Assembly (NCBI GenBank): GCA_023653115.1 | Contig: JAMNXO010000002.1 | Location: forward strand, 1-64,000 | Origin: Erythrobacter sp. | GTDB taxonomy: Bacteria > Pseudomonadota > Alphaproteobacteria > Sphingomonadales > Sphingomonadaceae | DNA length: 64,000 nucleotides | Direction: 5' to 3' | Shown here: positions 20,713-40,187 of the stretch, piece after piece | Layout of the letters: every line of letters starts with the position of its first letter | How positions within the stretch are numbered: the stretch's first letter is position 1 | Translations under genes and position numbers: made by a program | The notes under the pieces: generated by a model | Database searches by the model: none | Seen by the model: only the letters and a program-made list of their open reading frames with translations | Told to the model about the DNA's origin: nothing

Positions 20713-20786
20713 GCCCCGGCGCTATATTCAAACCCCCGCCGTGCCAAGTCCGCGCGGCCAATACCCATCCGAAGGACGCCCCTCAC

Positions 20787-22529: not shown

Positions 22530-22530
22530 C

Positions 22531-23349: not shown

Positions 23350-23367
23350 GGTTTCAGACCACCCGCT

Positions 23368-24852: not shown

Positions 24853-24916
24853 GTGGGGGGAGATAGAGCCGCCTCGCCCGCGCGGCAACACACAAGCTTT
24901 GAAGGCCGCACCGTCG

Positions 24917-25417
24917 ATGTATGATTTCAAGCCCGCCGCCCCGCTTCCCGCAGCGGAACTTTACCGCGAATTGCTCGGCGCGGCCGAGGCGCTGACGGCG
25001 GGTGAGCCCGATGGCATCGCCAACATGGCCAATGTCGCCGCGCTTTTGTGGGAATTCCTGCCAGACCTGAACTGGGCGGGCTTCTACCGCACCGCGCCCA
25101 CCAAGGACGGTGCGGGCAGCGAGCTGGTGCTCGGGCCATTTGTCGGGCGGCCCGCCTGCATCCGCATTCCCTTTGGCGTGGGCGTGTGCGGGGCAGCGGC
25201 GGAAAGTCGCGCCGCGCAACTTGTCGAAGATGTCCACGCCTTCCCGGGCCACATTGCCTGCGACGCGGCGAGCGCGAGCGAGCTGGTGGTGCCGGTGCTG
25301 CGCGATGGCGCGGTGATCGCGGTGATCGATCTCGACAGCCCCACCCCCGCCCGCTTTACCGAGGCCGACCGGGAAGGCGTCACCGCGCTGGCAGCCCTGC
25401 TCGCCCCGCGTATCTGA
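24917..25417 (+). CDS. msrC: free methionine-(R)-sulfoxide reductase (GAF domain, fRMsr)
   Basis: A 166-residue single GAF-domain enzyme that reduces free methionine-R-sulfoxide. The three cysteines used in catalysis are in place: PACIRIPFGVGVCG supplies two and FPGHIACDAAS the third. LNWAGFYR and DVHAFPGH are family hallmarks, and SELVVPVLRDGAVIAVIDLDS closes the fold. It is divergent from the sugar dehydrogenase and shares a short upstream region. It is a protective enzyme for oxidative stress in the cytoplasm. Confidence 0.92.
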   Translation: MYDFKPAAPLPAAELYRELLGAAEALTAGEPDGIANMANVAALLWEFLPDLNWAGFYRTAPTKDGAGSELVLGPFVGRPACIRIPFGVGVCGAAAESRAAQLVEDVHAFPGHIACDAASASELVVPVLRDGAVIAVIDLDSPTPARFTEADREGVTALAALLAPRI

Positions 25418-25545
25418 CAGCATCCCGCCCCCGGGGCTTCCCGAAACGGGACAGCCCCCACACCCTGCTTGGGAGCGAGGGCGAGTCGATGGTAGGCTTT
25501 TGCTAACCATCCGCCGTGCCCGGCTGATCCAGGGGAAAATTGCCC

Positions 25546-26355
25546 ATGCTCAAGCTGCCGACCACCCTTCCGCTCGCCGCGCTTGCGCTGGCCTTGCCTG
25601 CGCTGGCAAATGCCCAGAATTACAGTGATTTGCCGCCGCTCGCGCCGATGAGCGAAGCCGAGGTTCGCAGCCTCCCCGCAGAGTATCGCACCGCGCCGGC
25701 CACCACGCGGACCGTGACCGAGACGACCGAAACCGTGATCGATGCCAACGGGGTCGAAACCATCACCCGCACCCGCCGGATCGATCTGCCAGCTGCGCCG
25801 CAGGGCTATGCGCCGGCCTACGCGCCCTCCTATGCGCCGGTGGTGTTCGAGCGCGATCAATGGCTCGACGAATGCCGCCGCCGCACGGCGGGCAAGGACA
25901 AGGACGATACCGGCGCAATCATCGGCGGCTTGCTCGGCGCGATTGCTGGCGGCTTTGCCGGCTACGAAATCGCCGGCGTGGGTGACCGCGTGCTCGGCAC
26001 CGTGCTTGGCGTGGGTGGCGGCGGGCTGATCGGCGGCTTGCTCGGCAGCCTGTTCGATGGCGATGACGACGCGGACCGCTACGACTGCGAAGCCGCGCTC
26101 GACACCTATCTTTCGCAATACGGCACGTCCGCCGCCTATCCCGGCGCGCGCAGCGCCAGCCGCGAGATCCCCTATCCCACCTATGGCTACGCCTATGCTC
26201 CGCCGCAAATGGTGATGGTGCCGGTGCGCAGCGAGGTGCCACAGCAGGTCGTGGTGCGCGAGACCGAGCGGTACGAGACCTACACCGTCCCCGGCGCAGC
26301 GCGGATCATTCCGGCCCCGCGCCCCTCGCCCAAGATGATCAAAGGCGGCAACTAA
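25546..26355 (+). CDS. exported glycine-zipper protein
   Basis: A 269-residue protein with a signal peptide (likely cleavage after ALANA, about residue 23). The middle contains two glycine-zipper membrane segments, DTGAIIGGLLGAIAGGFAG and GTVLGVGGGGLIGGLLGSL, the glycine-zipper 2TM pattern of outer-membrane or periplasmic lipoprotein-like proteins. The N-terminal mature part is Thr-rich (ATTRTVTETTETV) and the end is Tyr/Pro-rich. No precise function. The ATG at 25546 is preferred to a TTG six bases upstream. A strong terminator follows. Confidence 0.75.
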   Translation: MLKLPTTLPLAALALALPALANAQNYSDLPPLAPMSEAEVRSLPAEYRTAPATTRTVTETTETVIDANGVETITRTRRIDLPAAPQGYAPAYAPSYAPVVFERDQWLDECRRRTAGKDKDDTGAIIGGLLGAIAGGFAGYEIAGVGDRVLGTVLGVGGGGLIGGLLGSLFDGDDDADRYDCEAALDTYLSQYGTSAAYPGARSASREIPYPTYGYAYAPPQMVMVPVRSEVPQQVVVRETERYETYTVPGAARIIPAPRPSPKMIKGGN

Positions 26356-26389
26356 GGCGCGCGGCGCTCGCTTGCGGGTGAGCGATACG

Positions 26390-26434
26390 AAAAGCCCCGC
26401 AGAAGTTGCGTAAGGCGACTTTTGCGGGGCTTTT
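26390..26434. terminator. bidirectional intrinsic terminator between the glycine-zipper gene and parB
   Basis: aaaagccccgcagaagt and its near-complement acttttgcggggctttt form a long stem with A-rich and T-rich flanks on the two sides, so it can stop transcription from both convergent genes. Confidence 0.88.
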
Positions 26435-26461
26435 GGTTGAGGTGCGGCGTGCGGGAGGCGA

Positions 26462-27433
26462 TCAGAACTCGCCGCCGGTCAGGCGCTGGCACACCAGATC
26501 AAGCTGGTCGAGCGTGGTGTAGCGGATCGTGATCGTCCCCTTGCGCGGATCGACTTCCGGCTTGATCCGCACGCCAAGTCCCAGAAATTCTTCGAGATGT
26601 TGCTGCACCGCGAGAATATCGGCGTTCTCGCCGCCCTCGGGGCGCGGCGGGCGGGCCACCGGAACCTTGGCCGCATCATTGGCCTTGCGGGTCAGCATCT
26701 CCATATCGCGCACCGAAAGACCTTCGGAGACCGCAATGTCGGCCAGATGCGCCGCATCGGCCCGCCCGATCAGCGCGCGCACATGACCGACGCTGAGCTT
26801 GCCCTGCTCCACATAGTCGAGCACCGCATCCGGCAGCGTCACGAGGCGCATCATGTTCGCCACATGGCTGCGCGATTTCTCGACCAGCTTGGCGATGTCG
26901 ACCTGGATCATCCCTTCCTCTTCGGAAAGGCGGTGATAGGCGCGCGCCTCCTCGACCGGATTGAGATCTTCGCGCTGCAGGTTCTCGATCAGCGCCAGCG
27001 CCATCACTTCGCGCTCGGACAGCTGGCGCACCAACGCGGGAATTTCGTGCAGCCGCGCCTTCTGTGCTGCTCGCCAGCGGCGTTCGCCCGCGACCAGCTG
27101 ATACCCCTCACCCGCAGGGTGCGGACGCACGATGATCGGCTGGATCACCCCGCGCGTCGCAATCGAGGCGGCGAGTTCTTCCAGCGCGGCCTCGTCGAAA
27201 TGCTTGCGCGGATTGCCCGGCAGCGGCTTGATCGCGGCCAGCGCCAGCATCCGCAAGGCGGTGCCGCCCGGCGCCGGTGCCTCGGCCGCCGGTTCCTCGC
27301 GGCGCACCAGCGGCTCCTCGCGCCGGCTTTCGCCCATCAGCGCGCCAAGACCCTTACCCAGGCGCCGCGGCTTTTCTGCAGCCTCCCGCAAAGGTGTCGT
27401 CAATTCAAGCGGTTGGGTGATATCGTCGCTCAT
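26462..27433 (-). CDS. parB: chromosome partitioning protein ParB
   Basis: The CTP-dependent DNA clamp that loads at parS. Its 323 residues contain the CTP-binding/ParB N-terminal domain (LPGNPRKHFDEAALEELAAS; YQLVAGERRWRAAQKA), a helix-turn-helix for parS (MIQVDIAKLVEKSRSHVANMMRLVTLP) and a C-terminal dimer domain ending GTITIRYTTLDQLDLVCQRL. It overlaps parA by four bases. Five parS sites lie in the genes downstream of the pair as read on the map, which supports a chromosomal (Type I) segregation system. Confidence 0.97.
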   Translation of the reverse strand: MSDDITQPLELTTPLREAAEKPRRLGKGLGALMGESRREEPLVRREEPAAEAPAPGGTALRMLALAAIKPLPGNPRKHFDEAALEELAASIATRGVIQPIIVRPHPAGEGYQLVAGERRWRAAQKARLHEIPALVRQLSEREVMALALIENLQREDLNPVEEARAYHRLSEEEGMIQVDIAKLVEKSRSHVANMMRLVTLPDAVLDYVEQGKLSVGHVRALIGRADAAHLADIAVSEGLSVRDMEMLTRKANDAAKVPVARPPRPEGGENADILAVQQHLEEFLGLGVRIKPEVDPRKGTITIRYTTLDQLDLVCQRLTGGEF

Positions 27434-28206
27434 GCGGCCTGTCTTTCAGCGGGAAAACGCCCGATCAATTCGCGCGCCAGTGCCATATAGGCGCGGCTGC
27501 CGGTGCAATGCTGATCATAGACCAGCGCGGGGAGCCCGTGGCTCGGCGCTTCGGAGAGGCGCACGTTGCGCGGGATCACGGTTTCGAACACCAGCTTGCC
27601 GAGGCAATCGCGCACATCATCCGAGACCTGATCGGTCAGGCGATTGCGGCGATCGAACATCGTCAGCGCCACGCCGATGATGCCGAGACGCGGATTGAAG
27701 CGCTGCTGCACCTGATCCACCGTCTGGAGCAGCTGGCTGAGGCCCTCGAGCGCGAAAAACTCGCATTGCAGCGGCACCAGCAGCGTATCAGCGGCGCACA
27801 AGGCGTTCAGCGTGAGCAGGCCGAGCGACGGAGGGCAATCGATAAAGGCAATGTCGTGCCCCGTGTGGTTCTCCAACGCGTGCCGCAGCCGCGCCGTGCG
27901 CTCGTCGACCGAGACCAGCTCCACCTCGGCGCCTGACAGATCGACCGTCGCCGGAACAATATCGAGGCGCGGAATGCTGGTCGGGACAATCGCACGGTCG
28001 AGCGCGACTTCATCGACCAGCAGATCATAGCTGGAAACCTCGCGCGCGGCGGCGTGGACGCCCAACCCGGTCGAGGCATTGCCCTGCGGATCAAGATCGA
28101 TCAGCAGCGTGCGCCAGCCGGTCGCCGCCATGGCCGTGGCGATGTTGATCGCGGTGGTGGTCTTGCCCACTCCGCCCTTCTGGTTGGCGATCGCGATGGT
28201 CAGCAT
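27430..28206 (-). CDS. parA: chromosome partitioning ATPase ParA
   Basis: Deviant Walker-type ATPase of 258 residues that binds non-specific DNA and moves ParB-parS complexes. The deviant P-loop NQKGGVGKTTTAINIA is at the N-terminus; LLIDLDPQGNASTGLG, FIDCPPSLGLLTLNAL and LVPLQCEFFALEGLSQLL follow in order. The gene starts a few tens of bases after the end of rsmG, giving the standard rsmG-parA-parB order. It is short and lacks a DNA-binding N-terminal extension, as expected for a chromosomal ParA. Confidence 0.97.
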   Translation of the reverse strand: MLTIAIANQKGGVGKTTTAINIATAMAATGWRTLLIDLDPQGNASTGLGVHAAAREVSSYDLLVDEVALDRAIVPTSIPRLDIVPATVDLSGAEVELVSVDERTARLRHALENHTGHDIAFIDCPPSLGLLTLNALCAADTLLVPLQCEFFALEGLSQLLQTVDQVQQRFNPRLGIIGVALTMFDRRNRLTDQVSDDVRDCLGKLVFETVIPRNVRLSEAPSHGLPALVYDQHCTGSRAYMALARELIGRFPAERQAA

Positions 28207-28263
28207 GGTGCCTGTGTCCTCCTACGCGCGGAATCCGGTTGAATCCGCAGCGCCTTTCGCGCG

Positions 28264-28890
28264 TCAGGCCTTCACAATGATTCCTGCGTCGGGATCGGTC
28301 AAGGAATGTTTCACGTGAAACATTGCCCGAATCGAAGGCTTGAGCGCCTCCAATTCCTGCGCCGCCGAGCGGCCCTTGGGCAAGACGTAGCGGGTGGCGC
28401 TTGTGGAGAAGGGTGCGGATAGCTCGAGAAGTTTGGGGAGCGGCGCAAAAGCACGTGCCGAAATGGCGCGCGCAGCAAAGGGCGCAACACGCTCAAGCCG
28501 CTGTGCTTCCACCCGGCATTTGCGCAAATCCAGCGCCGCAATCGCGGATTGCAGGAACTCCGCCCGCCGCGCGCGGGATTCGACCAGCACCACCGGCATA
28601 TTCGGGCACAGCGCCGCGATCACCAGCCCCGGGAACCCCGGCCCGCTGCCGAGGTCGAGCCATGGCCCGCCCGCATTGGCACCCAATGTTTCACGTGAAA
28701 CATTCTCGAGCAGCTGGGCGGAGTCGGCAATGTGCCGCTGCCAGATATGCGGCTCGGTTGCCTTGGCAATCAGGTTCTGGCGCTGGTTTTCTTCCAGCAC
28801 CAGCGCGGCGAAGGTCTCCAGGCGCGCCATGCCCGCTGCATCGGTCAGCCCCGCGACATAGGCGCGCGCCTCGGCTTCGGTGACAATCAT
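28264..28890 (-). CDS. rsmG: 16S rRNA (guanine-N7) methyltransferase RsmG
   Basis: Methylates G527 of 16S rRNA using S-adenosylmethionine. Its 208 residues include [24 protein letters not shown] and the SAM-binding loop [16 protein letters not shown], followed by [14 protein letters not shown]. Two parS sites are embedded in the coding sequence: one reads as AMFHVKHS near the C-terminus, the other as NVSRET just before the SAM loop. The start overlaps the mnmG stop by four bases. Confidence 0.95.
28307..28322. other. parS: parS centromere site 1
   Basis: Perfect 16-base palindrome tgtttcacgtgaaaca, the consensus ParB-binding parS site of bacterial chromosomes. It lies inside the 3' part of rsmG. 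Confidence 0.95.
28687..28702. other. parS: parS centromere site 2
   Basis: Perfect copy of tgtttcacgtgaaaca inside rsmG, read in a different codon frame from site 1 (encoding NVSRET rather than FHVKH). Confidence 0.95.
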
Positions 28891-30749
28891 GCCGCGCGCT
28901 GCCCGTTGGCAAGCCGGCGCGCATGGACCAGCAAGGCCGAGAGCGCCGCCGGGGTCACCCCCGCCACACGCCCTGCCGCCGCCAGCGTTCCGGGCGCTGC
29001 CGAAGCGAGGCGCTCGACCATTTCGTTCGAAAGCCCTGGCACCTCGGCATAGGGGAAGTCTGCCGCGAGCGTCAGCGCCTCGCTTGCGCGAAGGTCACGC
29101 AGTTCGGCATCCTGCCGCGCGAGATAGGGTGCATAGGCGGCATCCTCGGCCATTTCCTCGGCCAGCAGGGGATCGAGCGCGGTCACCTCGCCAAGCCATG
29201 GGGCAAGCGCATCGGGCGACACCCCGTCATGCCGCAGCCACTCGCTGAGCGGCTTTTCGCCATGGTCACGCCGCACCGGAAGGCCCAGATCGGCCAGCTC
29301 GCGCGCATGGACCTTCTGCGAATGTTTCACGTGAAACATTTTGCGCAAGTCCTCGCGGCGTTCCCACCAGATGCGCCGTTCCTCGCTGATGCACCCAGCT
29401 TCGATGCCCAGCCCTGTCAGACGGGTCGCCGCATTATTGGCGCGCAGGCGCAGACGGTATTCCGCGCGCGCGGTGAGCATCCGGTAGGGCTCCGACACAC
29501 CCTGCAGCGTCAGATCGTCGACCATCACCGCGATATAGGCATTCGCCCGGTCCAGCGCAGGCGCCGCCTTGCCCAAGGCGGCCGCAGAAGCCTCAAGCCC
29601 GGCGACCAACCCCTGTGCGGCGGCTTCCTCGTATCCGGTGGTGCCGTTGATCTGCCCCGCGCAATAGAGCCCGGGGATTGCGCGCAGCTGCAAGTCGGGC
29701 GTGAGCGCGCGCGGATCGATGTGATCATACTCCACCGCATAGCCCGGCTGCACGATCACCGCCGTCTCGCAGCCCGGCATGGTGCGGACCACAGTTTCCT
29801 GCACATCGGTGGGCAGCGAGGTGCTGATCCCGTTGGGATAGACCATGTGGGTGTCCAACCCCTCGGGCTCGAGGAACACCTGATGCCCCTCGCGGTCACC
29901 GAAGCGGTGGATCTTGTCCTCGATCGAGGGGCAATAGCGCGGGCCTGCCGCCGCAATCGCGCCCGAGAAAAGCGGCGAGCGGTGGAGGTTGGCGCGGATC
30001 GCATCATGCCCCGCCTGCGTGGTGCGGGTGATGGCGCAGAACACCTGCGGGTTCACCCGGCGCGGGGTAAGCGCCGACATGGTCCAGGCCTCGCAGTCAG
30101 AGGGCTGCTCTTCAAGCACCGCCCAGTTGATCGTCCGCCCGTCGATCCGCGGCGGCGTGCCGGTCTTGAGGCGCGCCATGGGGAGATCGGCGGCGCGCAG
30201 CTGCTGGGCGAGGCGCTTGGCGGCGTTTTCACCGATGCGGCCACCCTCGTAACGCTCCTCGCCGCGGAACAGCACGCCGCCAAGGAAGGTGCCGGTGCAC
30301 AGCACCACGCGCGGGGCATGGAGGATGGTGCCGTCAGCCAGCTCCAGCCCGGCAACAGCGCCGCCTGCCAGCACCAGCGCGGCAGCCTCGCCCTCGACCA
30401 GCGTGAGATTGGCCTGCGCGCGCACGATCGCTTGCACCGCCGCCTTGAACCGCACCCGGTCTGCCTGCACGCGCGGGCCCCACACGGCGCTGCCCTTGGA
30501 ACGGTTGAGCATCCGGTAATGGATCGCGCCGGCATCGGCTGCGCGGCCGATAACGCCGTCGAGCGCATCCACCTCGCGCACCAGATGGCCCTTGCCCAAC
30601 CCCCCGATCGCGGGGTTGCAGCTCATCGCGCCAATGGCATTGAGGTCAAAGCTCACCAGCGCGGTGCGCGCGCCCATGCGGGCCGCAGCGCAGGCGGCCT
30701 CAACCCCGGCGTGACCGCCGCCGATGACGAGGACATCGAAGGAATGCAT
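28887..30749 (-). CDS. mnmG: tRNA uridine-5-carboxymethylaminomethyl modification enzyme MnmG
   Basis: FAD-dependent partner of MnmE in making cmnm5U34 in tRNA. The FAD-binding start is [44 protein letters not shown] and [24 protein letters not shown] are typical, as is [26 protein letters not shown]. The 620-residue length is normal. I took the ATG at 30749 rather than one 12 codons upstream, as the family begins just before the FAD motif. A parS site inside the gene encodes KMFHVKHS. Confidence 0.97.
29323..29338. other. parS: parS centromere site 3
   Basis: Perfect tgtttcacgtgaaaca inside mnmG, read as FHVKH. The insertion lies in the C-terminal helical region of MnmG, where length variation is tolerated. 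Confidence 0.95.
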
Positions 30750-30814
30750 GGCGCCGCAGATAGGGCGCGGGGGGCGAATCGTCAAAGCGGATTCGGCGGG
30801 ATGCGCAGCGCCAA

Positions 30815-30830
30815 TGTTTCACGTGAAACA
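30815..30830. other. parS: parS centromere site 4
   Basis: Perfect tgtttcacgtgaaaca in the short gap between mnmE and mnmG, the only one of the five outside a coding region. Confidence 0.95.
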
Positions 30831-30846
30831 TTTTGCGCTCGCAGCC

Positions 30847-32133
30847 TCACTTCCCGATGCAGAAGCGCCCAAACAGGGTGTCGAGCATATCCTCGGTGGT
30901 GGCCCGCCCGATCAGCCGGTCAAAGGCCAGACGGGCACGGCGCAGTTCTTCCGCCACCAGCAAGGGATCGCCCAGCCAGCGCGCCGCCGTGAGCGCCTCC
31001 GCCGCCTCGGCCAGACGCGCGTGTTGCCGTGCGTTGAGCGCGCCTTGCCCTGGTTTCGACAGGGCATCACGGGCGGTCGCGACCAGCGCGTGTTTGAGTG
31101 CAGCCACCCCTTCCCCCGTTGTCGCCGAAAGGGTGAAGCGCGCCGCGGACTTGGGAGTGAAGCCGGCGCAGTCGGCCTGCGCGGCAATCTCCCACGCGTG
31201 CGCTGGCCCCTCGCCTTCCGCCCCCAGCCACAGCACGCAGTCGGCACGCGCAAGCTCACCGCGCGCGCGGTCGATGCCGATGGCCTCGATCTCATCGGCA
31301 AGATCGCCGTCCCGCAGGCCCGCCGTATCGACGAAGGTGAACGGCACGCCGCCAATCGCCACGGCGCGTTCGATCACATCGCGGGTTGTCCCGGCAATCG
31401 GCGAGGTGATGGCCGCTTCGCTTTCAATCAAGGCGTTGAAAAGGGTTGATTTCCCGGCGTTGGGCGGCCCGGCCAGCACCACGCGGTAGCCCTCCCCCAA
31501 CCGCTCGGAGCGCGGGCGGGCGAGCCAGGCGCCAATTTCCCCGGCGAGCGCGGCAATGTTCCACGTGAAACATTCGGGCAGGTCGGCCGAGTCCTCCTCG
31601 TCCGAGAAATCGAGCACGCCTTCGACTTCGGCCGAGAGCACCAGCGCCTGTTCGCGCCACGCCTCGACCTGGCGCGACAGCGCGCCGCCGGCATTGGCAA
31701 GCGCGGCGGCGCGGGCGAGTTCGGTTTCGGCGGAGAGCAGATCAGCCAGCCCCTCGGCTTCGGCCAGATCGATGCGACCATTGGCAAAAGCGCGGCGGGT
31801 GAATTCGCCCGGCTCGGCGCGGCGCAGGCCCGCAAGTGCCGCCAGCGCGCCCTCCACCGCCGCGATCACCGCGCGGCCTCCGTGGCAGTGCAATTCGGCG
31901 AGATCCTCGCCGGTGGCGGTGTTCGGCCCGGGGAACCAAAGCACCAGGGCCTCGTCGAGAAGCGCGCCCGCATTGTCGTGGAGCTTGGCCAGCGACGCGC
32001 GGCGCGGCTGCGGCACTCGCCCCGTCAACGCCGCCAGCGCCGCTGCTGCCTGCGGGCCAGACACGCGAATAACCCCGATACCCGCAGGCGGCGCGCCGCT
32101 CGACAGCGCGAAGATCGTCGGAGTCTCGCTCAT
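30847..32133 (-). CDS. mnmE: tRNA modification GTPase MnmE
   Basis: GTPase that works with MnmG on tRNA wobble uridines. The N-terminal tetrahydrofolate-binding domain starts TIFALSSGAPPAGIGVIRVSG; the G domain has GPPNAGKSTLFNAL (G1), IAGTTRDV (G2) and DTAGLRD (G3); the protein ends with the diagnostic FCIGK. Length is 428 residues from the ATG at 32133; a longer reading upstream is not conserved. A parS-like site within the gene encodes ECFTWN. Confidence 0.97.
   Translation of the reverse strand: MSETPTIFALSSGAPPAGIGVIRVSGPQAAAALAALTGRVPQPRRASLAKLHDNAGALLDEALVLWFPGPNTATGEDLAELHCHGGRAVIAAVEGALAALAGLRRAEPGEFTRRAFANGRIDLAEAEGLADLLSAETELARAAALANAGGALSRQVEAWREQALVLSAEVEGVLDFSDEEDSADLPECFTWNIAALAGEIGAWLARPRSERLGEGYRVVLAGPPNAGKSTLFNALIESEAAITSPIAGTTRDVIERAVAIGGVPFTFVDTAGLRDGDLADEIEAIGIDRARGELARADCVLWLGAEGEGPAHAWEIAAQADCAGFTPKSAARFTLSATTGEGVAALKHALVATARDALSKPGQGALNARQHARLAEAAEALTAARWLGDPLLVAEELRRARLAFDRLIGRATTEDMLDTLFGRFCIGK
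31557..31572. other. parS: parS-like site 5 (one mismatch)
   Basis: tgttccacgtgaaaca differs from the parS consensus by one base in the left half. It lies inside mnmE. It may bind ParB more weakly than the four perfect sites. Confidence 0.8.
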
Positions 32134-32146
32134 GGCAGGCGGATTG

Positions 32147-32419
32147 TTACGAGCCCTTGGGCCCCTTGGCGCTACCCCCGGACGCACCGGACGCCGCCTT
32201 CATCCCGCTTTCCACGAAGTTCTGGAACATCTTCAGCCCCACCTGCCCCATCGGCGCCAGCGCGGAGGCATATTGCTGCAACTGGTCAGGGCTGGAGACG
32301 CCCTGCATCGCCTTGGTGATATTGTCGACATAGACGCTGTTCGCCGCGCTGACATCGGGCAGGCCCATGAAGCTGCGGGCCTCTTCGGGGGTGCAATCGA
32401 TTTCGATGGTGATCTTCAT
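32147..32419 (-). CDS. DUF6489-type small protein
   Basis: A 90-residue cytoplasmic protein beginning MKITIEIDCTPEEARSFMGLPDVS, followed by a helical middle (ITKAMQGVSSPDQLQQYASALAP) and a Ser/Gly/Lys-rich tail. It fits a small conserved alphaproteobacterial family of unknown function. The ATG at 32419 has a good Shine-Dalgarno (ggagaggag). It ends 14 bases before the mnmE start and is probably the first gene of the mnmE-mnmG-rsmG-parAB run. Confidence 0.7.
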   Translation of the reverse strand: MKITIEIDCTPEEARSFMGLPDVSAANSVYVDNITKAMQGVSSPDQLQQYASALAPMGQVGLKMFQNFVESGMKAASGASGGSAKGPKGS

Positions 32420-32524
32420 GGCCGTGTCTCCTCTCCCGCGTGCGCCTGTCTCATTTGGGCTTGGCAGCCGTGCAAGGCAAGCGATAGACCACGCGCAGCC
32501 CCTGAACCACCAGAGAGAGATCCC

Positions 32525-33223
32525 ATGAGCCTCAACGCCACCATCCCCACGCTGGAAGGCGACGCCGAGTTCGGCGCCTATATCGCGACCCCGGAGGGCA
32601 CGCCGCGCGGGGCGATCATCGTCATTCAGGAGATTTTCGGGGTGAACCCCGGCATCCGCCAGAAATGCGACAAGCTCGCCGCCGAAGGCTGGTTGGCCGT
32701 TGCGCCCGATCTGTTCTGGCGCCTTCAGCCGGGCATCACGCTCGATCCCGATGTGCAGGCCGAATTCACCCAAGCGCTTGATTGGATGGTGCAATTCGAT
32801 CAGGATACCGGCATTCGCGACATCGAAGCCACGATCCATCACATCCGCCGCACACTCGGCGTCGCCAAGGTCGGTTGCGTGGGTTACTGCCTCGGCGGGC
32901 GCCTCGCTTACATGACCGCCGCACGCACCGACATCAATGCCAGCGTCGGCTATTACGGGGTCGGCATTGATGGCCTGCTGGGCGAGAAACACGCCATTGC
33001 CCACCCGCTGATGCTGCATATTCCCACGGCGGACGGCTTTGTGCCGCCCGAAACCCAGGCGGCGATGCACACCGCGCTGGATGATCACCCGCGCGTGACG
33101 CTTTACGACTACGAAGGGCTCGATCACGGCTTTGCGACCGAGACGGGACTGCGCCGTCAGGAGGAAGCCGCGACCCTGGCCGACAGCCGCACCGCCACCT
33201 TCTTTGCCGAGCATCTCGGGTGA
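32525..33223 (+). CDS. dienelactone hydrolase family protein
   Basis: Alpha/beta hydrolase of 232 residues. The nucleophile elbow is VGCVGYCLGGRLAY with cysteine as nucleophile, the glutamate is in IVIQEIFGVNPGI, and the catalytic histidine is in LDHGFATE. This is the carboxymethylenebutenolidase (dienelactone hydrolase) arrangement. No aromatic degradation genes are nearby, so the true substrate is open; many such proteins are general esterases. The Shine-Dalgarno is agagagat. It overlaps the next gene (gtga). Confidence 0.9.
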   Translation: MSLNATIPTLEGDAEFGAYIATPEGTPRGAIIVIQEIFGVNPGIRQKCDKLAAEGWLAVAPDLFWRLQPGITLDPDVQAEFTQALDWMVQFDQDTGIRDIEATIHHIRRTLGVAKVGCVGYCLGGRLAYMTAARTDINASVGYYGVGIDGLLGEKHAIAHPLMLHIPTADGFVPPETQAAMHTALDDHPRVTLYDYEGLDHGFATETGLRRQEEAATLADSRTATFFAEHLG

Positions 33224-33618
33224 GCGCCCATCCCGGCCTTGCGCGCTGGCACGCCTATATGGAGAGCGGCGGCGATGCGGCCCTGCTCTCGGCGCTGATT
33301 GCCGAGACTTGCGTGTTCCATTCGCCGGTGGTCCACACCCCGCAGGCCGGCAAGCCGGTGGTGATGGCCTACCTGCTCGCGGCGGCAAAGGTGCTGGGCA
33401 ATGATGCCTTCCACTATGTCCGCGAGGTGGTGGACGGGGACGAGGTGGTGCTCGAATTCGTCACCGAACTGGACGGCATCAGCGTCAACGGGGTCGATAT
33501 CATGCACTTCAACGCAGATGGACAGATCAGCGATTTCAAGGTGATGGTGCGGCCTTTGAAGGCGATCAATGCCGTGTGGCAGATGATGGGCGCACAGCTC
33601 GCCGCGGCCAAGGGCTGA
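33220..33618 (+). CDS. nuclear transport factor 2 (SnoaL-like) family protein
   Basis: A 132-residue protein with the cone-shaped NTF2-like fold pattern: LARWHAYMESGGDAALLSALIAETCVFHSP, then VLEFVTELDGISVNGVDIMHFNADGQISDFKVMVRPLKAI. Such proteins serve as small enzymes or ligand binders; the substrate is unknown. It starts with a GTG whose bases overlap the stop of the dienelactone hydrolase gene, so the two are translationally coupled and may act on related compounds. Confidence 0.85.
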   Translation: MSAHPGLARWHAYMESGGDAALLSALIAETCVFHSPVVHTPQAGKPVVMAYLLAAAKVLGNDAFHYVREVVDGDEVVLEFVTELDGISVNGVDIMHFNADGQISDFKVMVRPLKAINAVWQMMGAQLAAAKG

Positions 33619-33633
33619 GCCGCAGAAGCGTAA

Positions 33634-34059
33634 TCAGGCCAGATGCGCCCGCAGCTGGTTTGCCCGCGCCTGATCGCAGCCGAAGAATGACGGCACCGCC
33701 TCGTCGACCACCTTGGGGACGGCACCATGAGCCTCGGCACTGATCATGTTGAGCACCTTGGCAATGTCGGAATCGTCGAAATAACGCATCGGCCAATTGC
33801 TGAAGATGCGCTCGGGAACGGACCGTTCATCCAGCACCTCGACATGGCTGTGGCGCACATCGCGGCGGATGGTTTGAAAGGCGGCACACAGCTTCCAGGT
33901 CGGCCCTTCGAGCACCTGGAGAAAGCGCTGATCCGAACGCAGCAGCAATCCGCTCAGGCCGCGCCGTTCGTTGGCGGCGCGCGCCTGATAAAGCAGCCTG
34001 AAAAGCTCCATCCGGTCCAGATCCGGTGAAACCACGCTCTGATAAATGATCCGGCGCAT
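33634..34059 (-). CDS. stand-alone BLUF blue-light sensor 1
   Basis: A 141-residue flavin-binding photoreceptor of the BLUF family. Key residues of the flavin pocket fall at the same spacing as in AppA: Tyr6 (IIYQS), Asn30 (AANERRG), Gln48 (FLQVLEG), with Trp89 and Met91 (NWPM) on the last strand. RRDVRHSHVEVL is also typical. No effector domain follows, only a short helical C-terminus, so signalling must go through a partner protein. A second BLUF gene lies directly upstream on the same strand. Confidence 0.92.
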   Translation of the reverse strand: MRRIIYQSVVSPDLDRMELFRLLYQARAANERRGLSGLLLRSDQRFLQVLEGPTWKLCAAFQTIRRDVRHSHVEVLDERSVPERIFSNWPMRYFDDSDIAKVLNMISAEAHGAVPKVVDEAVPSFFGCDQARANQLRAHLA

Positions 34060-34145
34060 CCCGCAGTCCCTGTCTTGGAACGGCGGGTTAGACTCGCGGA
34101 AGCATATCGAAGCCTAGCGGGAACCCCGGGAATTACCCCTAGAGC

Positions 34146-34538
34146 CTAGTTCAGAACCGCGAAATTGACGATCATCTTGCGCACTTCGGGATCAAGATCC
34201 TGCGGCAGATCGCGATCCAACATTTCGCGGCGTGCGGCGATGCTTTCGGCAATCAGCACGCGCTTCATGGCCCAATCGGGGCAGGCGCGCGCGGCGATTG
34301 CCCGGCGATCGAGCACCGACACCCCGCTGTGGCGGGGATCGGCGGTGATCTTGTCCATCAGACCGGCCACCTCGGCCTCCTCGCCTTCGAGCAGCTGGAG
34401 GAAATTGCGGCCGTTGAACAGCAACAGACCCGTGATCCCGCGCGCGGGGTTGTTGCGCGCACTGGTGGCGAGGATCGAATCGACCTCCTCGCGCGGCAGG
34501 GTCGGCGCGGTGCTGATGTAGAGATATTGACTGAGCAA
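34146..34538 (-). CDS. stand-alone BLUF blue-light sensor 2
   Basis: A 130-residue BLUF protein with the flavin-pocket residues Tyr7 (LYIS), Asn30 (ARNNPARGITG), Gln48 (FLQLLEG), Trp89 and Met91 (DWAM). It shares the family plan of its neighbour but differs in many positions, so the pair is not a recent duplication. The C-terminal helices (MLDRDLPQDLDPEVRKMIV) end without an output domain. It lies between rho and BLUF 1, probably in one transcript with BLUF 1. Confidence 0.92.
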   Translation of the reverse strand: MLSQYLYISTAPTLPREEVDSILATSARNNPARGITGLLLFNGRNFLQLLEGEEAEVAGLMDKITADPRHSGVSVLDRRAIAARACPDWAMKRVLIAESIAARREMLDRDLPQDLDPEVRKMIVNFAVLN

Positions 34539-34596
34539 GCTTCCCGTCCCTTTTGGCCTGTCTGGCGGGCCGACCCCATGGCCCGTGCGCGTGATG

Positions 34597-35862
34597 CTAT
34601 TGATTCATCGTGTCGAAGAAGTCGTCGTTGGTCTTCGAATCCTTCATCTTGTCGAGCAGGAATTCCATCGCATCTACGGTGCCCATCTGCATCAGGATGC
34701 GGCGCAGCACCCACATCTTGGACAGGCGATCCTTCTCCACCAGCAGTTCTTCCTTGCGGGTGCCGGACTTGCCGACGTCGAGCGCCGGGAAGATGCGCTT
34801 GTCGGCGACCTTGCGGTCGAGCACGATTTCGCTGTTACCGGTGCCCTTGAACTCTTCGAAGATGACTTCGTCCATGCGGCTGCCGGTGTCGATCAGCGCA
34901 GTGGCGATGATCGAGAGGCTGCCGCCTTCCTCGATGTTACGCGCCGCACCGAAGAAGCGCTTGGGCCGCTGGAGCGCGTTGGCATCCACACCGCCGGTCA
35001 GCACCTTGCCCGAAGACGGCACCACGGTGTTGTAGGCCCGGCCGAGACGCGTGATCGAATCAAGCAGGATTACCACGTCATGCTTGTGCTCGACGAGGCG
35101 CTTGGCCTTTTCGATCACCATTTCGGCAACCTGCACGTGGCGCTGCGCGGGTTCGTCAAAGGTCGAGGAGACAACCTCGCCCTTCACAGAACGCTGCATA
35201 TCGGTGACTTCCTCGGGGCGTTCATCGACAAGCAGGACGATCAGGAACACCTCGGGGTGATTGTCGGTGATCGCCTTGGCGATATTCTGCAGCAGCACCG
35301 TCTTACCGGTGCGCGGCGGCGCGACGATCAGCGCGCGCTGGCCCTTGCCCTGCGGTGCGATGATATCGATCACCCGCGCGCTCTTGTCCTTCACGGTGGG
35401 ATCAAGGCTGTCGAGCGTCAGCTTCGAATCCGGATAGAGCGGGGTGAGGTTGTCGAAATTGGTGCGCAGGCGCACCGCGTCGGGATCGTCGAAATTGACC
35501 TTGGCGAGGCTGGTCAGCGCGAAATAGCGCTCGCCATCGCGCGGTGCGCGGATTTCGCCTTCCACGGTGTCGCCGGTGCGCAGGCCCCAGCGGCGCACCT
35601 GGTTGGGCGAGACATAGATATCGTCCGGCCCGGCGAGATAGTTCGCTTCCGGCGAGCGCAGGAAGCCGAAGCCGTCCTGCAGCACCTCGATGGTGCCGAT
35701 GCCCATGATCTTTTCTTCGTATTCCTCGTCCTCGGCCAGTTCGCGCAGGATGCTGAACAGCAGATCCTGACGGCGCATGGTCGAGGCGCCTTCAACGCCC
35801 AGCTCTTCGGCCATCGCGACCAGTTCGGCCGGGGTCTGTCGTTTGAGGTCTTTCAGATGCAT
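34597..35862 (-). CDS. rho: transcription termination factor Rho
   Basis: Hexameric RNA helicase for factor-dependent termination. The 421-residue protein has the N-terminal helix bundle ([19 protein letters not shown]), the RNA-binding cold-shock-like domain ([28 protein letters not shown]), Walker [29 protein letters not shown] and the Q/R-loop region [21 protein letters not shown]. Its place next to hemJ and hemE is the conserved arrangement near alphaproteobacterial origins. A 221-base leader with hairpins precedes it. Confidence 0.97.
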
Positions 35863-35901
35863 TATGTGTATTCCAAAGGCAGGAGTGGCCGGATGGTCAG
35901 T

Positions 35902-36011
35902 GCCTCCTGATGCAGGAGGCGCCCCCTTGTCATGGGCCTGAAGAAAATCATGCAGGCCGGTCGGGGCTGGGCTTGGAGAAAGCAGACCTGTGGGAGCGCA
36001 AAACCGCTCCC
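35902..36011 (-). promoter_or_regulatory. structured leader upstream of rho
   Basis: The gap between hemJ and rho holds two hairpins: gcctcctgatgcaggaggc (35902-35920) and gggagcg/cgctccc (35992-35998 with 36005-36011). Neither is followed by a T-run on the minus strand, so they are not classic terminators. rho leaders are often used for self-regulation; that role here is an inference. Confidence 0.4.
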
Positions 36012-36083
36012 GACACCGGATGGGTGATTGCTGCGATAGAAGCGCCGGAGCGCGTGGTCAATTGTGTAAAGTGGCCGGCCCGC

Positions 36084-36530
36084 TCAGAACGGCTTGAGAT
36101 AGACCAGCGCGACAATCAGGACGAGCAACAGCCCGGGCAGTTCGCCGATCATCCGCAGGCGCGCTTCGGTCAGCGGACGCTCGCCGCGGGCCATCTTCTT
36201 GGTCTGCCCCACCAGCCAGCCGTGGAAACCTGTCATCACCAGCACCAGCGTCAGCTTGGCATGGAGCCAGCCGCCGCCGGAGAAATGATCGCCCGCAATG
36301 GCCATGCTCAGCCCCAGCACCCACACGATGATCATGCTGGGGGTGAGGATGATTGTGCGCAGCTTGCCCGTGCGGCTCGCCCACTTGGCCTCGCCCTCCG
36401 AGCCCGGCGCGTGATCGAGCATATAGATGCACTGGCGCGGCAGCATGAACAGCCCCGCCAGCCAGAACACCATGAAGATCACATGGCCGATCTTGAGGAA
36501 GGGATAGATGAGCAGGAGGGTCGATTGCAT
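36084..36530 (-). CDS. hemJ: protoporphyrinogen oxidase HemJ (CopD family)
   Basis: A 148-residue membrane protein with four predicted transmembrane helices, starting IYPFLKIGHVIFMVFWLAGLFMLPRQCIYMLDH, where the His of the first helix is the expected heme ligand. KWASRTGKLRTIILTPSMIIVWVLG and WLHAKLTLVLVMTGFHGW follow, as in the HemJ family, which oxidises protoporphyrinogen IX in many bacteria lacking HemG or HemY. The position between rho and hemE supports this over a copper-transport role suggested by the CopD name. Confidence 0.85.
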   Translation of the reverse strand: MQSTLLLIYPFLKIGHVIFMVFWLAGLFMLPRQCIYMLDHAPGSEGEAKWASRTGKLRTIILTPSMIIVWVLGLSMAIAGDHFSGGGWLHAKLTLVLVMTGFHGWLVGQTKKMARGERPLTEARLRMIGELPGLLLVLIVALVYLKPF

Positions 36531-36545
36531 GGCCTGATCCCTACC

Positions 36546-37562
36546 CTAGCCTCGCAGCGCCGCAAGCAATTCCTCGACATGGGAAATCGGCGTGAATTGC
36601 CCGATCCCGTGGCCAAGGTTGAACACGTGCGGGCGATCTTCAAACGCCGCGATGATGGTGCGCAGACGCTCGGCCATCGCCGGGCCGCCTGCTTCAAGCA
36701 GCAGCGGATCGAAATTGCCCTGCACCGGCATTCCTGCAGGCAGGCTGGCATGAGCCCAGGCGGGATCAAGCGTCTCGTCGAGGCCCACGGCATCCACCCC
36801 CGTCTCGCGGGCATAGGCGGGCAGCTTCGCGCCGGCGCCCTTGGGGAAGCCGATCACCGGCGTATCGGGGTGCGTTTCCTTGAGCTTCGCGGTGATCGCG
36901 GCATTGGGGGCGACCACCCACTTTTCGAACTGGTCAGGCGCGAGGCTTCCGGCCCAGCTGTCGAACAGCTGTACGGCTTCGGCGCCGGCATCGATCTGGC
37001 CGCGCAGGTAGGTGACCGAAACCTCGATGATGGCATCGATGATCGCCTGCATATGCGCCGGATCCCGGTAAGCCAGCAGCCGCGCCGGGCCCTGATCCTT
37101 CGAGCCTTCGCCGGCAATCATGTAGGTCGCCACGGTCCACGGACTGCCCGCAAAGCCGAGCATCGTCACCTCGGGCCCGATGAGCGCGCGGGTGCGGCGC
37201 ACGGTTTCATACACCGGCTCGAACCGCTCGAACGCCGGGGTGAAGCTATCGAGCCCGGCTTCGAGCAGCGTTGGCGAAAGGTGCGGGCCTTCTCCGGCGA
37301 GGAACTGCAACCCCTGCCCCATCGCGTGCGGCACGATCAGGATATCGGAAAACAGGATCGCACCATCGAATCCGAAGCGCCGGATCGGCTGGACGGTAAT
37401 CTCGGCGGCGGCCTCGCTGTCGTAAACCAGCTCGAGGAATCCACCCTTCTCGGCCCGCAATTCGCGGTATTCCGGCAAATAACGACCGGCCTGGCGCATG
37501 AGCCAAACGGGGGCGATGTCCTGTCGGACACCCTTCAGCGTATCGAGCAATTTGCCAGGCAT
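36546..37562 (-). CDS. hemE: uroporphyrinogen decarboxylase
   Basis: Converts uroporphyrinogen III to coproporphyrinogen III. The 338 residues contain APVWLMRQAGRYLPEYRELRA at the N-terminus (the substrate-binding RQAGR) and GFAGSPWTVATYMIAGEGSKDQ, QLFDSWAGSLAP and FNLGHGIGQFTP further on. The ATG at 37562 has aagga upstream and a TATAAT hexamer 28 bases before the start. It borders the putative replication origin, a position conserved in many alphaproteobacteria. Confidence 0.97.
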   Translation of the reverse strand: MPGKLLDTLKGVRQDIAPVWLMRQAGRYLPEYRELRAEKGGFLELVYDSEAAAEITVQPIRRFGFDGAILFSDILIVPHAMGQGLQFLAGEGPHLSPTLLEAGLDSFTPAFERFEPVYETVRRTRALIGPEVTMLGFAGSPWTVATYMIAGEGSKDQGPARLLAYRDPAHMQAIIDAIIEVSVTYLRGQIDAGAEAVQLFDSWAGSLAPDQFEKWVVAPNAAITAKLKETHPDTPVIGFPKGAGAKLPAYARETGVDAVGLDETLDPAWAHASLPAGMPVQGNFDPLLLEAGGPAMAERLRTIIAAFEDRPHVFNLGHGIGQFTPISHVEELLAALRG

Positions 37563-37897
37563 GGCGTTCCTTTAATCAAAACAATTCAAATTATAAAAGG
37601 ATTGATGGAGTCTGTTGGCCCTGTGGAAAGCGGGAATTACCGGCCTCTGCCGGGTTACCCCCACTCTGCCCCATGCCCATCACCCCCCAGCGAATCCGCA
37701 CAGATTGGACGTCAAGCCGGCTTTATCCCCACTCTTCCCAGCCTGTCGATAACACTTATCCCGTGTTGGCAAATACCCCGAGGAAAAGCCTGTCAGCGGG
37801 TATGAAAATTCGTCCCCAGCTTGTCCGCCAATTGCTCCCGTGGTTTATGCGGCCATCTGTCCACAGCCCGCGGGCAGCCCAGTGAGCGATCCCGAGC
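37563..37897. other. oriC: putative chromosomal replication origin (oriC)
   Basis: Gene-free stretch between hemE and the PPSR gene, the place of oriC in Caulobacter and relatives. It has an AT-rich segment (about 37572-37600) in otherwise GC-rich DNA, a candidate unwinding region. DnaA-box-like 9-mers with one mismatch to TTATNCACA are ttatcccca (37723-37731) and, on the other strand, ttatcgaca (37744-37752); weaker ones are tgtggaaa (37622-37629) and ctgtccaca (37857-37865). Two GANTC sites (37608-37612, 37692-37696) would be CcrM targets. A short inverted repeat aacac/gtgtt (37751-37767) surrounds ttatccc. Genes on both sides run outward. Confidence 0.82.
37590..37595 (-). promoter_or_regulatory. 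-10 hexamer of the hemE promoter
   Basis: On the minus strand the sequence reads tataat, with only a weak -35 match (ccaaca) at 17 bases. It lies in the AT-rich edge of the putative origin, so hemE transcription would start within oriC, as reported for Caulobacter. Confidence 0.5.
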
Positions 37898-38743
37898 ATG
37901 AGTCGACTGAACCTGCATCTTGTATCGGATTCGACCGGCGAGACTCTGGAAATGATCGCCAAGGCGGCGCTCGCCCAGTTCGACGATCCCGATGTCAGCC
38001 GCCATTTCTGGCCGATGGTGCGCTCGCTCCAGCATCTTGACCGGATCGTGCCCGATCTCGCCGCGCATCCGGGGCTGGTGCTCTATACGCTGGTGAACCC
38101 GGAAACCCGCAAGCGGCTGGAGGAGCATTGCCGCCATCTCGGCCTGCCCGCGGTGCCGGTGCTGGATCAGGTCACCGCGGCGCTCGAAGCCCAGCTCGGG
38201 CAGGAAGCCCACGGCCGCCCGGGCCGCCAGCACATGATGGACGCCGACTATTTCAAACGCGTCGATGCGATCCAGTACACCATCGCCCATGATGACGGCA
38301 TCGGTTACGAGGAATGGGAAGAGGCCGACATCGTGCTTGTCGGCGTGTCGCGCTCATCCAAGACGCCGACCAGCATCTATCTCGCCAATCGCGGCTACAA
38401 GGTCGCCAATATCCCGCTGGTGGTGGAAAGCCCGCCGCCGCAGGTGCTTTACGGGCTGCGCCATCCGCTGATCGTCGGCCTCACCACCAGTCCCGAACGG
38501 CTGGTGCAGATCCGCCGCAACCGGCTGCTGTCGCTCAACGAGGCGACCGAGACGGCCTATGTCGATAACGACAAGGTGAAGACCGAGCTGCAATTCGCGC
38601 GGCGGATGTATGCCGATAATGGCTGGCCGGTGATCGACGTCACCCGCCGCTCGATCGAGGAGACGGCCGCGGCGATCATCCGGCTGGCGCAGGAACGCGG
38701 GCGCAAACCGGCGAGCGAAGGCGGGGTGGGCCAGCCGATATGA
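37898..38743 (+). CDS. pyruvate, phosphate/water dikinase regulatory protein (PPSR, DUF299)
   Basis: Bifunctional ADP-dependent kinase and phosphorylase that switches pyruvate phosphate dikinase or PEP synthetase off and on. The 281-residue protein begins LNLHLVSDSTGETLEMIAKAALAQF and contains the P-loop VGVSRSSKTPTSIYLANRGYKVANIPLV, then LTTSPERLVQIRRNRL, all diagnostic of the DUF299 family. It is the first gene to the right of oriC, as in Caulobacter, and overlaps the Maf gene by four bases. Confidence 0.95.
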   Translation: MSRLNLHLVSDSTGETLEMIAKAALAQFDDPDVSRHFWPMVRSLQHLDRIVPDLAAHPGLVLYTLVNPETRKRLEEHCRHLGLPAVPVLDQVTAALEAQLGQEAHGRPGRQHMMDADYFKRVDAIQYTIAHDDGIGYEEWEEADIVLVGVSRSSKTPTSIYLANRGYKVANIPLVVESPPPQVLYGLRHPLIVGLTTSPERLVQIRRNRLLSLNEATETAYVDNDKVKTELQFARRMYADNGWPVIDVTRRSIEETAAAIIRLAQERGRKPASEGGVGQPI

Positions 38744-39336
38744 GCGGGACACGGCTCATCCTCGCCAGCAAGAGCGCCTCGCGCCGGGCGATGCTCGATG
38801 CAGCAGGTGCGGCTTACGAAAGCATCCCCGCCGATATCGACGAGCGCGCGGTGGAAGCCGGTCTTGCAGGAGCCGCGCCGTCCGAAGTGGCCGAGGCGCT
38901 GGCGGTTGCCAAGGCGGCCACGGTGGCGGCGCTGCACCCCGGCGCGCTGGTGCTCGGATCGGATTCGCTGGTGGTCGCAAACGGCCGCCGCTTCGACAAG
39001 CCGCAAACCCGCGAGGAAGCGGGCGAGCATCTCCGGTTCTTCTCGGGCAGAGTGATGGAGCTCCACTCCGCCGCCGCACTGGTGAAAGACGGCGGGTGCC
39101 AATGGAGCCACACCAGCATCGCCCGCCTGCACGTGCGCGATCTCTCCGAGGATTTCATCGCCGCCTATCTCGAAAAGGAATGGCCCGAAATCAGCCACAC
39201 CGTCGGCGCATTCCGGATCGAGGGGCCCGGGGTGCAGCTGTTCGAGCATATCGAGGGCGACCAGTTCACCGTGCTGGGGATGCCGCTGCTGCCCTTGCTC
39301 GGCGCACTGCGCGAGGAAGGGGTGCTGCTGGCATGA
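38740..39336 (+). CDS. Maf-type nucleoside triphosphate pyrophosphatase
   Basis: House-cleaning pyrophosphatase of 198 residues that hydrolyses non-canonical or modified nucleotides. The N-terminal LILASKSASRRAMLDAAG motif, LVLGSDSLVVANG and the TREEAGEHLRFFSGR segment are family hallmarks. Which Maf subtype (dTTP/UTP or m7GTP) it belongs to is not certain. It overlaps the genes on both sides (atga), within the PPSR-maf-aroE-coaE operon. Confidence 0.93.
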   Translation: MSGTRLILASKSASRRAMLDAAGAAYESIPADIDERAVEAGLAGAAPSEVAEALAVAKAATVAALHPGALVLGSDSLVVANGRRFDKPQTREEAGEHLRFFSGRVMELHSAAALVKDGGCQWSHTSIARLHVRDLSEDFIAAYLEKEWPEISHTVGAFRIEGPGVQLFEHIEGDQFTVLGMPLLPLLGALREEGVLLA

Positions 39337-40187
39337 CCAAGCCTTATACCGAGGTGATCGGCGATCCGATTGCGCAGTCCAAGTCTCCGTCGATCCATGG
39401 CTTCTGGCTGGGCAAGCTCGGGATCGATGCCGACTACCGCGCCGCCCATGTGCGGCCGGAAGCGCTGGCCGATTACATCGCCGCCCGCCGCGCCGATCCG
39501 CTGTGGCGCGGTTGCAATGTCACCATGCCGCACAAGCAGGCGGTGATGCCGCATCTCGATCAGATCCACTCTCCCGCCGATACCATTGGCGCGGTCAACA
39601 CCATTCTGCCGCTGGGCGATGGCACGCTCGCCGGGACCAACACCGATGCGGCAGGCTTCCTCGAGCCGCTGCGCGTTACCCTTGCCGATACCCACTATTA
39701 CCGCATGGCGCGCATCCTCGGCACCGGCGGCGCGGCGCGGGCGATCATTGCTGCGCTGGCGGACAAGGGCTTCACGCTGGTGGTGGCGGGCCGCGATCCG
39801 GCCAAGGCACGCGCGCTGCTCGATGAACTCGCGCCCAAGGGCGAGCATCACGCGATTGATCTGGCGCACTTTGCCGATCCCACCGATTTCGCCTTCGACG
39901 ACCGCGAAGGCTGCTGTGATCTCGTCATCAACGCCTCCAGCCTCGGGATGCAGGGCCAGCCTCCCCTGCCCTTCGACTGGAGCCACGCGCCGCCGGGCAG
40001 CATCGCCTATGATATCGTCACCGCCCCGCGCGATACCGCCTTCCTCCAAGCCGCCCGCGCCAAGGGTCTGCCCGCTATCGACGGGCTCTCGATGCTGATC
40101 GGACAGGCGGCGGCGGCGTTTGAAAAGTTCTTCGGCCAGCCTGCCCCGCGCCAGCATGATGCCGAACTGCGCGAGCTGCTGCGCTGA
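39333..40187 (+). CDS. aroE: shikimate dehydrogenase
   Basis: NADPH-dependent reduction of 3-dehydroshikimate in aromatic amino acid synthesis. The 284-residue enzyme has the shikimate-binding GDPIAQSKSPSIHGFWL, catalytic Lys in VTMPHKQAV, Asp in GTNTDAAGFL and the nucleotide loop ILGTGGAARAIIAAL. LSMLIGQAAAAFEKFFGQP is the usual C-terminal helix. It overlaps maf upstream and coaE downstream. Confidence 0.96.
   Translation: MTKPYTEVIGDPIAQSKSPSIHGFWLGKLGIDADYRAAHVRPEALADYIAARRADPLWRGCNVTMPHKQAVMPHLDQIHSPADTIGAVNTILPLGDGTLAGTNTDAAGFLEPLRVTLADTHYYRMARILGTGGAARAIIAALADKGFTLVVAGRDPAKARALLDELAPKGEHHAIDLAHFADPTDFAFDDREGCCDLVINASSLGMQGQPPLPFDWSHAPPGSIAYDIVTAPRDTAFLQAARAKGLPAIDGLSMLIGQAAAAFEKFFGQPAPRQHDAELRELLR

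Follow-up and report, generated by a model that had tools for sequence, protein, structure and literature searches.

The window (the whole stretch of DNA analysed, 64,000 nucleotides) belongs to contig C58, in a genome bin of 2.40 Mb that comprises 65 contigs and is 86% complete. The nearest named relatives by PPSR, the pyruvate,phosphate dikinase/PEP synthase regulator, were Porphyrobacter and Erythrobacter (95% identity). The features of the gap between hemE and PPSR and of its surroundings are collected in Table 1. On the hemE side of the gap lie hemJ, rho, MnmE, MnmG, GidB, ParA and ParB, and on the PPSR side maf, aroE, coaE and a DnaQ-like exonuclease. Profile matches above cut-off were obtained for hemE, PPSR, maf, rho, coaE, MnmG and MnmE, and such matches also named aroE, the DnaQ-like exonuclease, ParA, ParB and GidB. 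HemJ scored 92.3 bits against its NCBIfam model, below the curated cut-off of 138.05. The first-pass annotation had given the gap the same coordinates and flanking genes, with rho-hemJ-hemE and PPSR-maf-aroE-coaE-dnaQ as neighbours, and both statements were borne out, HemJ being the only neighbour below cut-off. Its AT-rich block, the TATAAT for hemE within that block, two one-mismatch DnaA-box-like 9-mers and two GANTC sites were likewise found in the gap, the TATAAT by sequence match only. An Rfam search of positions 36000-39000, up to an E value of 1, gave no match, and a noncoding RNA in the gap was rejected on this result.

Table 1. Features of the hemE-PPSR gap and neighbouring loci, in window coordinates.
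Feature	Position	Strand	Basis or remark
parB	26462-27433	-	profile match
parA	27430-28206	-	profile match
parS cluster	28307-31572		exact sites at 28307, 28687, 29323 and 30815; one-mismatch site at 31557
hemE, uroporphyrinogen decarboxylase	36546-37562	-	TIGR01464 match above cut-off
hemE-PPSR gap	37563-37897		335 bp, between hemE (-) and PPSR (+)
Proposed oriC proper, hemE start codon to far DnaA box	37563-37865		near-fixed arm lengths in close clade
AT-rich DNA unwinding element (DUE), predicted	37567-37600		stability minimum, AT content, alignment
TATAAT-like -10 element of hemE promoter, putative, inside DUE	37590-37595	-	sequence match
Conserved linker GATGGAGTCTGTTGGCCC between DUE and first box	37604-37621		contains GANTC at 37608-37612
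End DnaA box adjoining DUE, predicted (CTTTCCACA)	37622-37630	-	core TCCACA; faces DUE
Second conserved GANTC site	37692-37696		GAATC in window
Inner DnaA box, predicted (TTATCCCCA)	37723-37731	+	one mismatch
Inner DnaA box, predicted (TTATCGACA)	37744-37752	-	one mismatch; inverted relative to 37723 box
Conserved block CTCCCGTGGTTTATGC, putative element	37835-37850		beside far DnaA box; no known factor
Far end DnaA box, predicted (CTGTCCACA)	37857-37865	+	core TCCACA; faces PPSR
PPSR, pyruvate,phosphate dikinase/PEP synthase regulator	37898-38743	+	NF003742 match above cut-off

Loci were taken from 80 relatives, two of which stop at a contig edge before hemE. The order hemE(-)-gap-PPSR(+) was found in all 78 that reached hemE. 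A second set of 118 order-level genomes included 109 with a PPSR match and nine without; 70 of the 109 were taken, and the same order was present in all 70, one of which was the source genome itself. The conservation set consisted of 79 gaps (that of the window and those of the 78 relatives). Gap edges are approximate in ten distant loci where the extrapolated hemE start was not ATG, and in ten loci where the extrapolated PPSR start was not ATG.

The gap has a GC content of 0.558, against 0.660 for the genome. The 30-mer at 37567 has a GC content of 0.167, the next lowest separate 30-mer in the window being at 0.333. Stability was calculated as nearest-neighbour energy with SantaLucia parameters; the AT block was the least stable 30-mer and 40-mer in the 292,813 bp contig and the second least stable at 50 and 60 bp. 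The AT content of the first 45 bp of the gap was 0.701 against 0.423 for the remainder, and was the higher of the two in 72 of 72 gaps compared (those of the 79 with hemE identity >67%). Alignment of the relatives showed that AT-richness is kept in the block and that its sequence is free. The block is a predicted DUE and adjoins a DnaA-box-like site, as expected of an alphaproteobacterial oriC at hemE.

The gap contains five DnaA-box-like 9-mers at two mismatches or fewer, two of which have one mismatch; no exact box was found within it. Both counts are the maximum over all 335 bp stretches of the window, and in 5000 dinucleotide shuffles of the gap they were reached at frequencies of 0.0024 (one mismatch) and 0.001 (two mismatches). 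Over the 79 gaps the mean was 1.51 boxes (≤1 mismatch) per gap, against 0.06 in shuffles. The DnaA-box cluster looked for in an alphaproteobacterial oriC is therefore present above chance, though without an exact box. Among the Sphingomonas gaps listed, several carry perfect or near-perfect inverted boxes in the region of the inner pair. The whole genome bin contains four exact boxes. Separately, genome G000 as a whole contains 119 DnaA-box-like 9-mers (≤1 mismatch) against 207 for a reversed control pattern, and such 9-mers are perhaps selected against there away from the origin.

The two end boxes share the core TCCACA. The DUE-side core was kept in 70 of the 79 aligned gaps (48/48 in the close clade) and the far core in 68 of 79 (45/48 in the close clade). 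Spacing was measured in the close clade, defined by hemE identity ≥80% and comprising 50 gaps after the addition of two order-level genomes. Both cores were present in 47 of these gaps, and in 46 of the 47 they face outward at 235-239 bp apart; the exception, L030, has its cores 142 bp apart. With this outlier left out, core-to-core spacing was ∼237 bp with a standard deviation of 0.84 bp (46 gaps). The hemE-side arm had a standard deviation of 0.66 bp, against 15.15 bp for the PPSR-side arm (same 46 gaps); the rest of the gap, from the far box to PPSR, is not fixed in length in the close clade. Rigidity of the hemE-side arm could be due in part to the promoter and leader of hemE itself. Among the 34 gaps of the next group, made up of other family members, 28 have both cores, and 20 of these are spaced at 230-245 bp; in the Sphingomonas-like group (26 gaps) both cores occur in 21, with such spacing in 1. 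Next to the far box, CGTGGTTTA of the conserved block occurs in 63 of 79 gaps. In the literature searched, which was available in part, no description was found of fixed end-box spacing or of loss of canonical boxes.

The exact box TTATCCACA was present in 1 of the 50 close-clade gaps and missing from the other 49. It was found in 2/33 distinct gaps of the next group, 15/26 of the Sphingomonas-like group, 14/14 of family f5, and 3/4, 0/1, 1/4, 3/4, 1/2 and 3/9 of the remaining families. The DnaA recognition segment GGRDHSTVIHAVR was identical in 13 of 13 DnaA proteins from relatives in both groups, an identity that is partly selected since the dnaA reading frames were chosen by a short motif of the recognition helix. 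As the segment is the same in both groups, a changed initiator was not the reason seen for the weak boxes, and a changed recognition helix was rejected as their cause. The suggestion of the first-pass annotation that initiator binding may differ from E. coli thus stands for the weakness of the boxes and fails for the recognition helix, which is ordinary in the relatives. The weak boxes of the window are the NNNTCCACA end boxes and differ from the G-boxes of the Caulobacter origin (Cori), which we take to be TGATCCACA. That sequence was absent from the gap and occurred once in the window, at 54187.

At the first GANTC site of the window the motif was kept in at least 55 of 79 gaps, and at the second in at least 67 of 79 (GAATC in 44, GACTC in 23). 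The commonest middle base of the second site was present in 49 of 79 gaps and its four fixed bases in 67 to 72; the corresponding values for the first site were 56 of 79 and 76, 69, 66 and 58 of 79. Because the last base of the first site (58/79) is barely above its middle base (56/79), only the second site is clearly patterned. GANTC density was compared with 5 kb of flank on both sides in 71 of the 79 loci and was 11.2 per kb in the gap against 1.7 in the flanks, the gap being higher in 70 of 71. In the close clade, enrichment over composition was 2.19 for GANTC and 2.23 for the control motif AGNCT. Such enrichment is not specific, and the close-clade GANTC claim therefore rests on column conservation and flank density. 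Three further GANTC sites lie at 37900-37946, within 50 bp of the PPSR start. The mean number of GANTC in the opening 60 bp of PPSR is 1.39 over the 79 loci, so the cluster of methylation sites extends into the gene.

Of 118 genomes, 105 carry a CcrM-type RAMA domain, both same-genus genomes among them, and 116 carry GcrA. The source bin contains GcrA; in this incomplete bin (86% complete) a RAMA domain match was absent. Since RAMA also occurs in families with few GANTC sites in the gap, it does not account for how the families differ. Conservation of the GANTC sites points to a possible effect of the methylation state set by CcrM on origin firing or on the divergent promoters. No publication combining GANTC, Sphingomonadaceae and origin of replication was found. 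The CtrA binding motif at origins was presumed to be TTAA-N7-TTAA. No full site of this kind was found in the window gap, and CtrA control of this origin was rejected accordingly; full sites were present in 2 of the 79 gaps and in 1 of the 70 order-level gaps.

Conservation of the gap was compared with two controls in the same 47 genomes. Columns kept at ≥90% made up 36.7% of the gap; the rho-hemJ gap reached 23.5% and third codon positions of PPSR 7.1%. Mean column identities were 0.745, 0.610 and 0.688, respectively. The rho-hemJ gap (35863-36083) is thus partly conserved in its own right and perhaps holds a regulatory element of the rho leader.

A model of the DUE plus first box (87 positions) was built from 47 of the 79 gap sequences, which in part accounts for its matches in near relatives. 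Its 43 matches fell in 42 of the 118 genomes, the other 76 having none; 39 of the matches were no more than 1.2 kb from PPSR. One match, in G020, lies at 3,145,498 of a single ∼3.1 Mb contig whose first bases hold PPSR; three are away from PPSR or not placeable (G027, G103 and the second in G106). G099, G108 and G117, all of genus g12 and at 99% completeness, have neither a PPSR match nor a model match, and their origin neighbourhood may be rearranged.

The partial conservation of the rho-hemJ gap (23.5% against 36.7% of columns) would also fit a reading in which the hemE-PPSR gap is nothing more than a conserved region of divergent promoters and 5'-UTRs for the two genes and the origin lies within ∼10 kb, for example at gidA or parAB. 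The TATAAT within the AT block fits this too, but the 30 bp and 40 bp stability minima of the 292.8-kb contig also fall in the gap. Strand polarity by KOPS resolves the origin to ∼5-10 kb only, and GC skew less well; against this, the densest DnaA-box-like cluster of the window is in the gap itself. The box-to-box spacing, fixed over ∼237 bp, counts further against a promoter alone, since promoters, we infer, would not need it. This explanation is accordingly considered very unlikely.

No dnaA profile match over cut-off was found in the source MAG (65 contigs). As this MAG is fragmented and lacks such a match, polarity was analysed in two relatives with one large contig, Erythrobacter sp. NAP1 and isolate 2B2-61-1 (two of the five one-contig candidates in which dnaA had been located), which were treated as circles. 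The KOPS motif was taken to be GGGNAGGG, from E. coli FtsK. The KOPS sample covered 980 kb of NAP1 in 49 stretches and 576 kb of 2B2-61-1 in 29 stretches. For NAP1 the best origin on a 5-kb grid was at 2,685,000, with the gap at 2,677,211 and dnaA at 2,295,834. KOPS were oriented as expected in 132/144 cases from the best origin, 130/144 from the gap and 114/144 from dnaA, whose log-likelihood was 27.8 units below that of the gap. Two discordant sites account for the 8-kb offset between the gap and the best position. The KOPS maximum of 2B2-61-1 coincides with the gap, from which 105/133 were oriented as expected; dnaA gave 84/133 and a log-likelihood 19.1 units lower. The KOPS switch therefore lies at the gap to within 8 kb in both relatives. 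In the source contig it is partial: eight KOPS left of the gap are all on the minus strand (0+/8-), and those on the right are only weakly polarised (18+/15-; Fisher P = 0.0056).

Cumulative GC skew was less sharp. In the source contig, in 20-kb bins, it was lowest at the end of bin 20001-40000; at finer scale within the window the minimum was near 46-49 kb, ∼10 kb off the gap. The sampled skew of NAP1 reached its minimum with the 2.70-2.72 Mb sample, within ∼50 kb of the gap, and in contiguous stretches it falls to the gap, is nearly flat over 2.678-2.73 Mb and is lowest at the far end. For 2B2-61-1 the lowest sampled cumulative value among those listed was near 1.93 Mb and did not single out the gap; the value at which this series starts, 148 kb from the gap, is even lower, as its construction dictates. 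The first-pass annotation had predicted a skew minimum here and not at dnaA; KOPS polarity in the two relatives favours the gap over dnaA, with GC skew unsharp in NAP1 and silent on the gap in 2B2-61-1.

An origin next to dnaA is common in other bacteria, and the NAP1 dnaA locus does contain one exact box, but dnaA lies 381 kb (NAP1) and 527 kb (2B2-61-1) from the gap, five dnaA loci (3483 bp each) hold 0-3 boxes at ≤1 mismatch, and the KOPS polarity in both relatives leads us to reject this location as extremely improbable. In agreement, dnaA is described as not close to ori in Sphingomonadales in the part of the report available (PMC8116508).

In the window, parAB and parS lie 6-11 kb from the gap (parS sites 6-9.5 kb). 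The genome has ten exact parS sites, four at 28307-30830 and the other six scattered in the bin. The sites at 28307-31572 fall within and around the coding sequences of gidB, gidA and mnmE.

Published origins were compared using the available portions of the reports. The predicted oriC of Sphingopyxis granuli TFA is close to hemE, as predicted for most Sphingomonadaceae in DoriC; it lies in a conserved gene neighbourhood and has a putative DUE and DnaA boxes, those of E. coli having served as the search template (PMC4741004). An origin close to hemE with three DnaA boxes was predicted in Novosphingobium PP1Y (PMC4059872). By description, the hemE-side origin is shared with the window, whereas the exact box is missing from 49/50 gaps of the window clade. 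In Hyphomonas neptunium the marker-frequency maximum is close to hemE, with parAB ∼7 kb away (PMC6650430); this resembles the window in hemE and nearby parAB, a likeness of position to an organism that is not a sphingomonad. Cori of Caulobacter crescentus is flanked by hemE (PMC6650430), its DnaA boxes are weak and tuned, with moderate G-boxes and very weak W-boxes (PMC4468827), and the origin contains GANTC sites (PMC3973325). The window resembles it in all three respects and differs in having no full CtrA site in the gap. The basal unwinding system is described as a DnaA-box, a spacer of ≤16 bp and three or more DnaA-trios (PMC8287927). The window resembles this system in that an end box adjoins the AT-rich unwinding region. 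It differs in its trios: with the minus-strand TCCACA box searched in one orientation, the sole run of three found has a spacer of 19 bp, which exceeds the limit in print, and no standard DnaA-trio was seen there.

The gap at 37563-37897 is almost certainly oriC, the chromosomal replication origin, and is an ordinary, well-supported case of the published oriC-at-hemE type. The identification made in the first-pass annotation is supported by synteny, the box cluster, the DUE, the KOPS switch in two relatives, KOPS and 20-kb GC skew in the source contig, the parS cluster, the model matches near PPSR and the published sphingomonad oriC at hemE. Weighing against it are the lack of an exact box, the weakly polarised right arm of the source contig, the 8-kb KOPS offset in NAP1, the displaced or flat GC-skew minima, the 76 genomes that the model did not match and the missing dnaA match in the MAG. 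DnaA would bind the DUE-side end box at 37622 (-), the inner inverted pair at 37723 (+) and 37744 (-) and the far box at 37857 (+). The resulting oligomer would then melt the AT-rich DUE at 37567-37600, helicase would be loaded, and one fork would travel through hemE-rho-gidA-parAB and the other through PPSR-maf-aroE. The combination of weak boxes and strict spacing suggests that DnaA assembles cooperatively, as at Cori, and by this analogy such assembly is the likely mechanism here.

More doubtful, but possible, is a wider model for the Erythrobacter/Porphyrobacter clade. Canonical boxes would have been lost almost entirely with the recognition helix unchanged, and the two outward TCCACA end boxes, ∼237 bp apart (standard deviation 0.84), would form one cooperative unit with the fixed-length DUE. 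GANTC sites methylated by CcrM, including the one in the DUE-box linker, would gate this unit much as Dam/SeqA do at E. coli oriC, without CtrA.

No origin experiment for this clade was found in the literature searched, and the origin is here narrowed to ∼300 bp. The near-invariant spacing of weak end boxes amid diverging sequence provides a natural test of DnaA oligomers measuring DNA. With conserved GANTC sites and a near-absence of full CtrA sites, the timing of initiation by CcrM becomes a testable question in this group.
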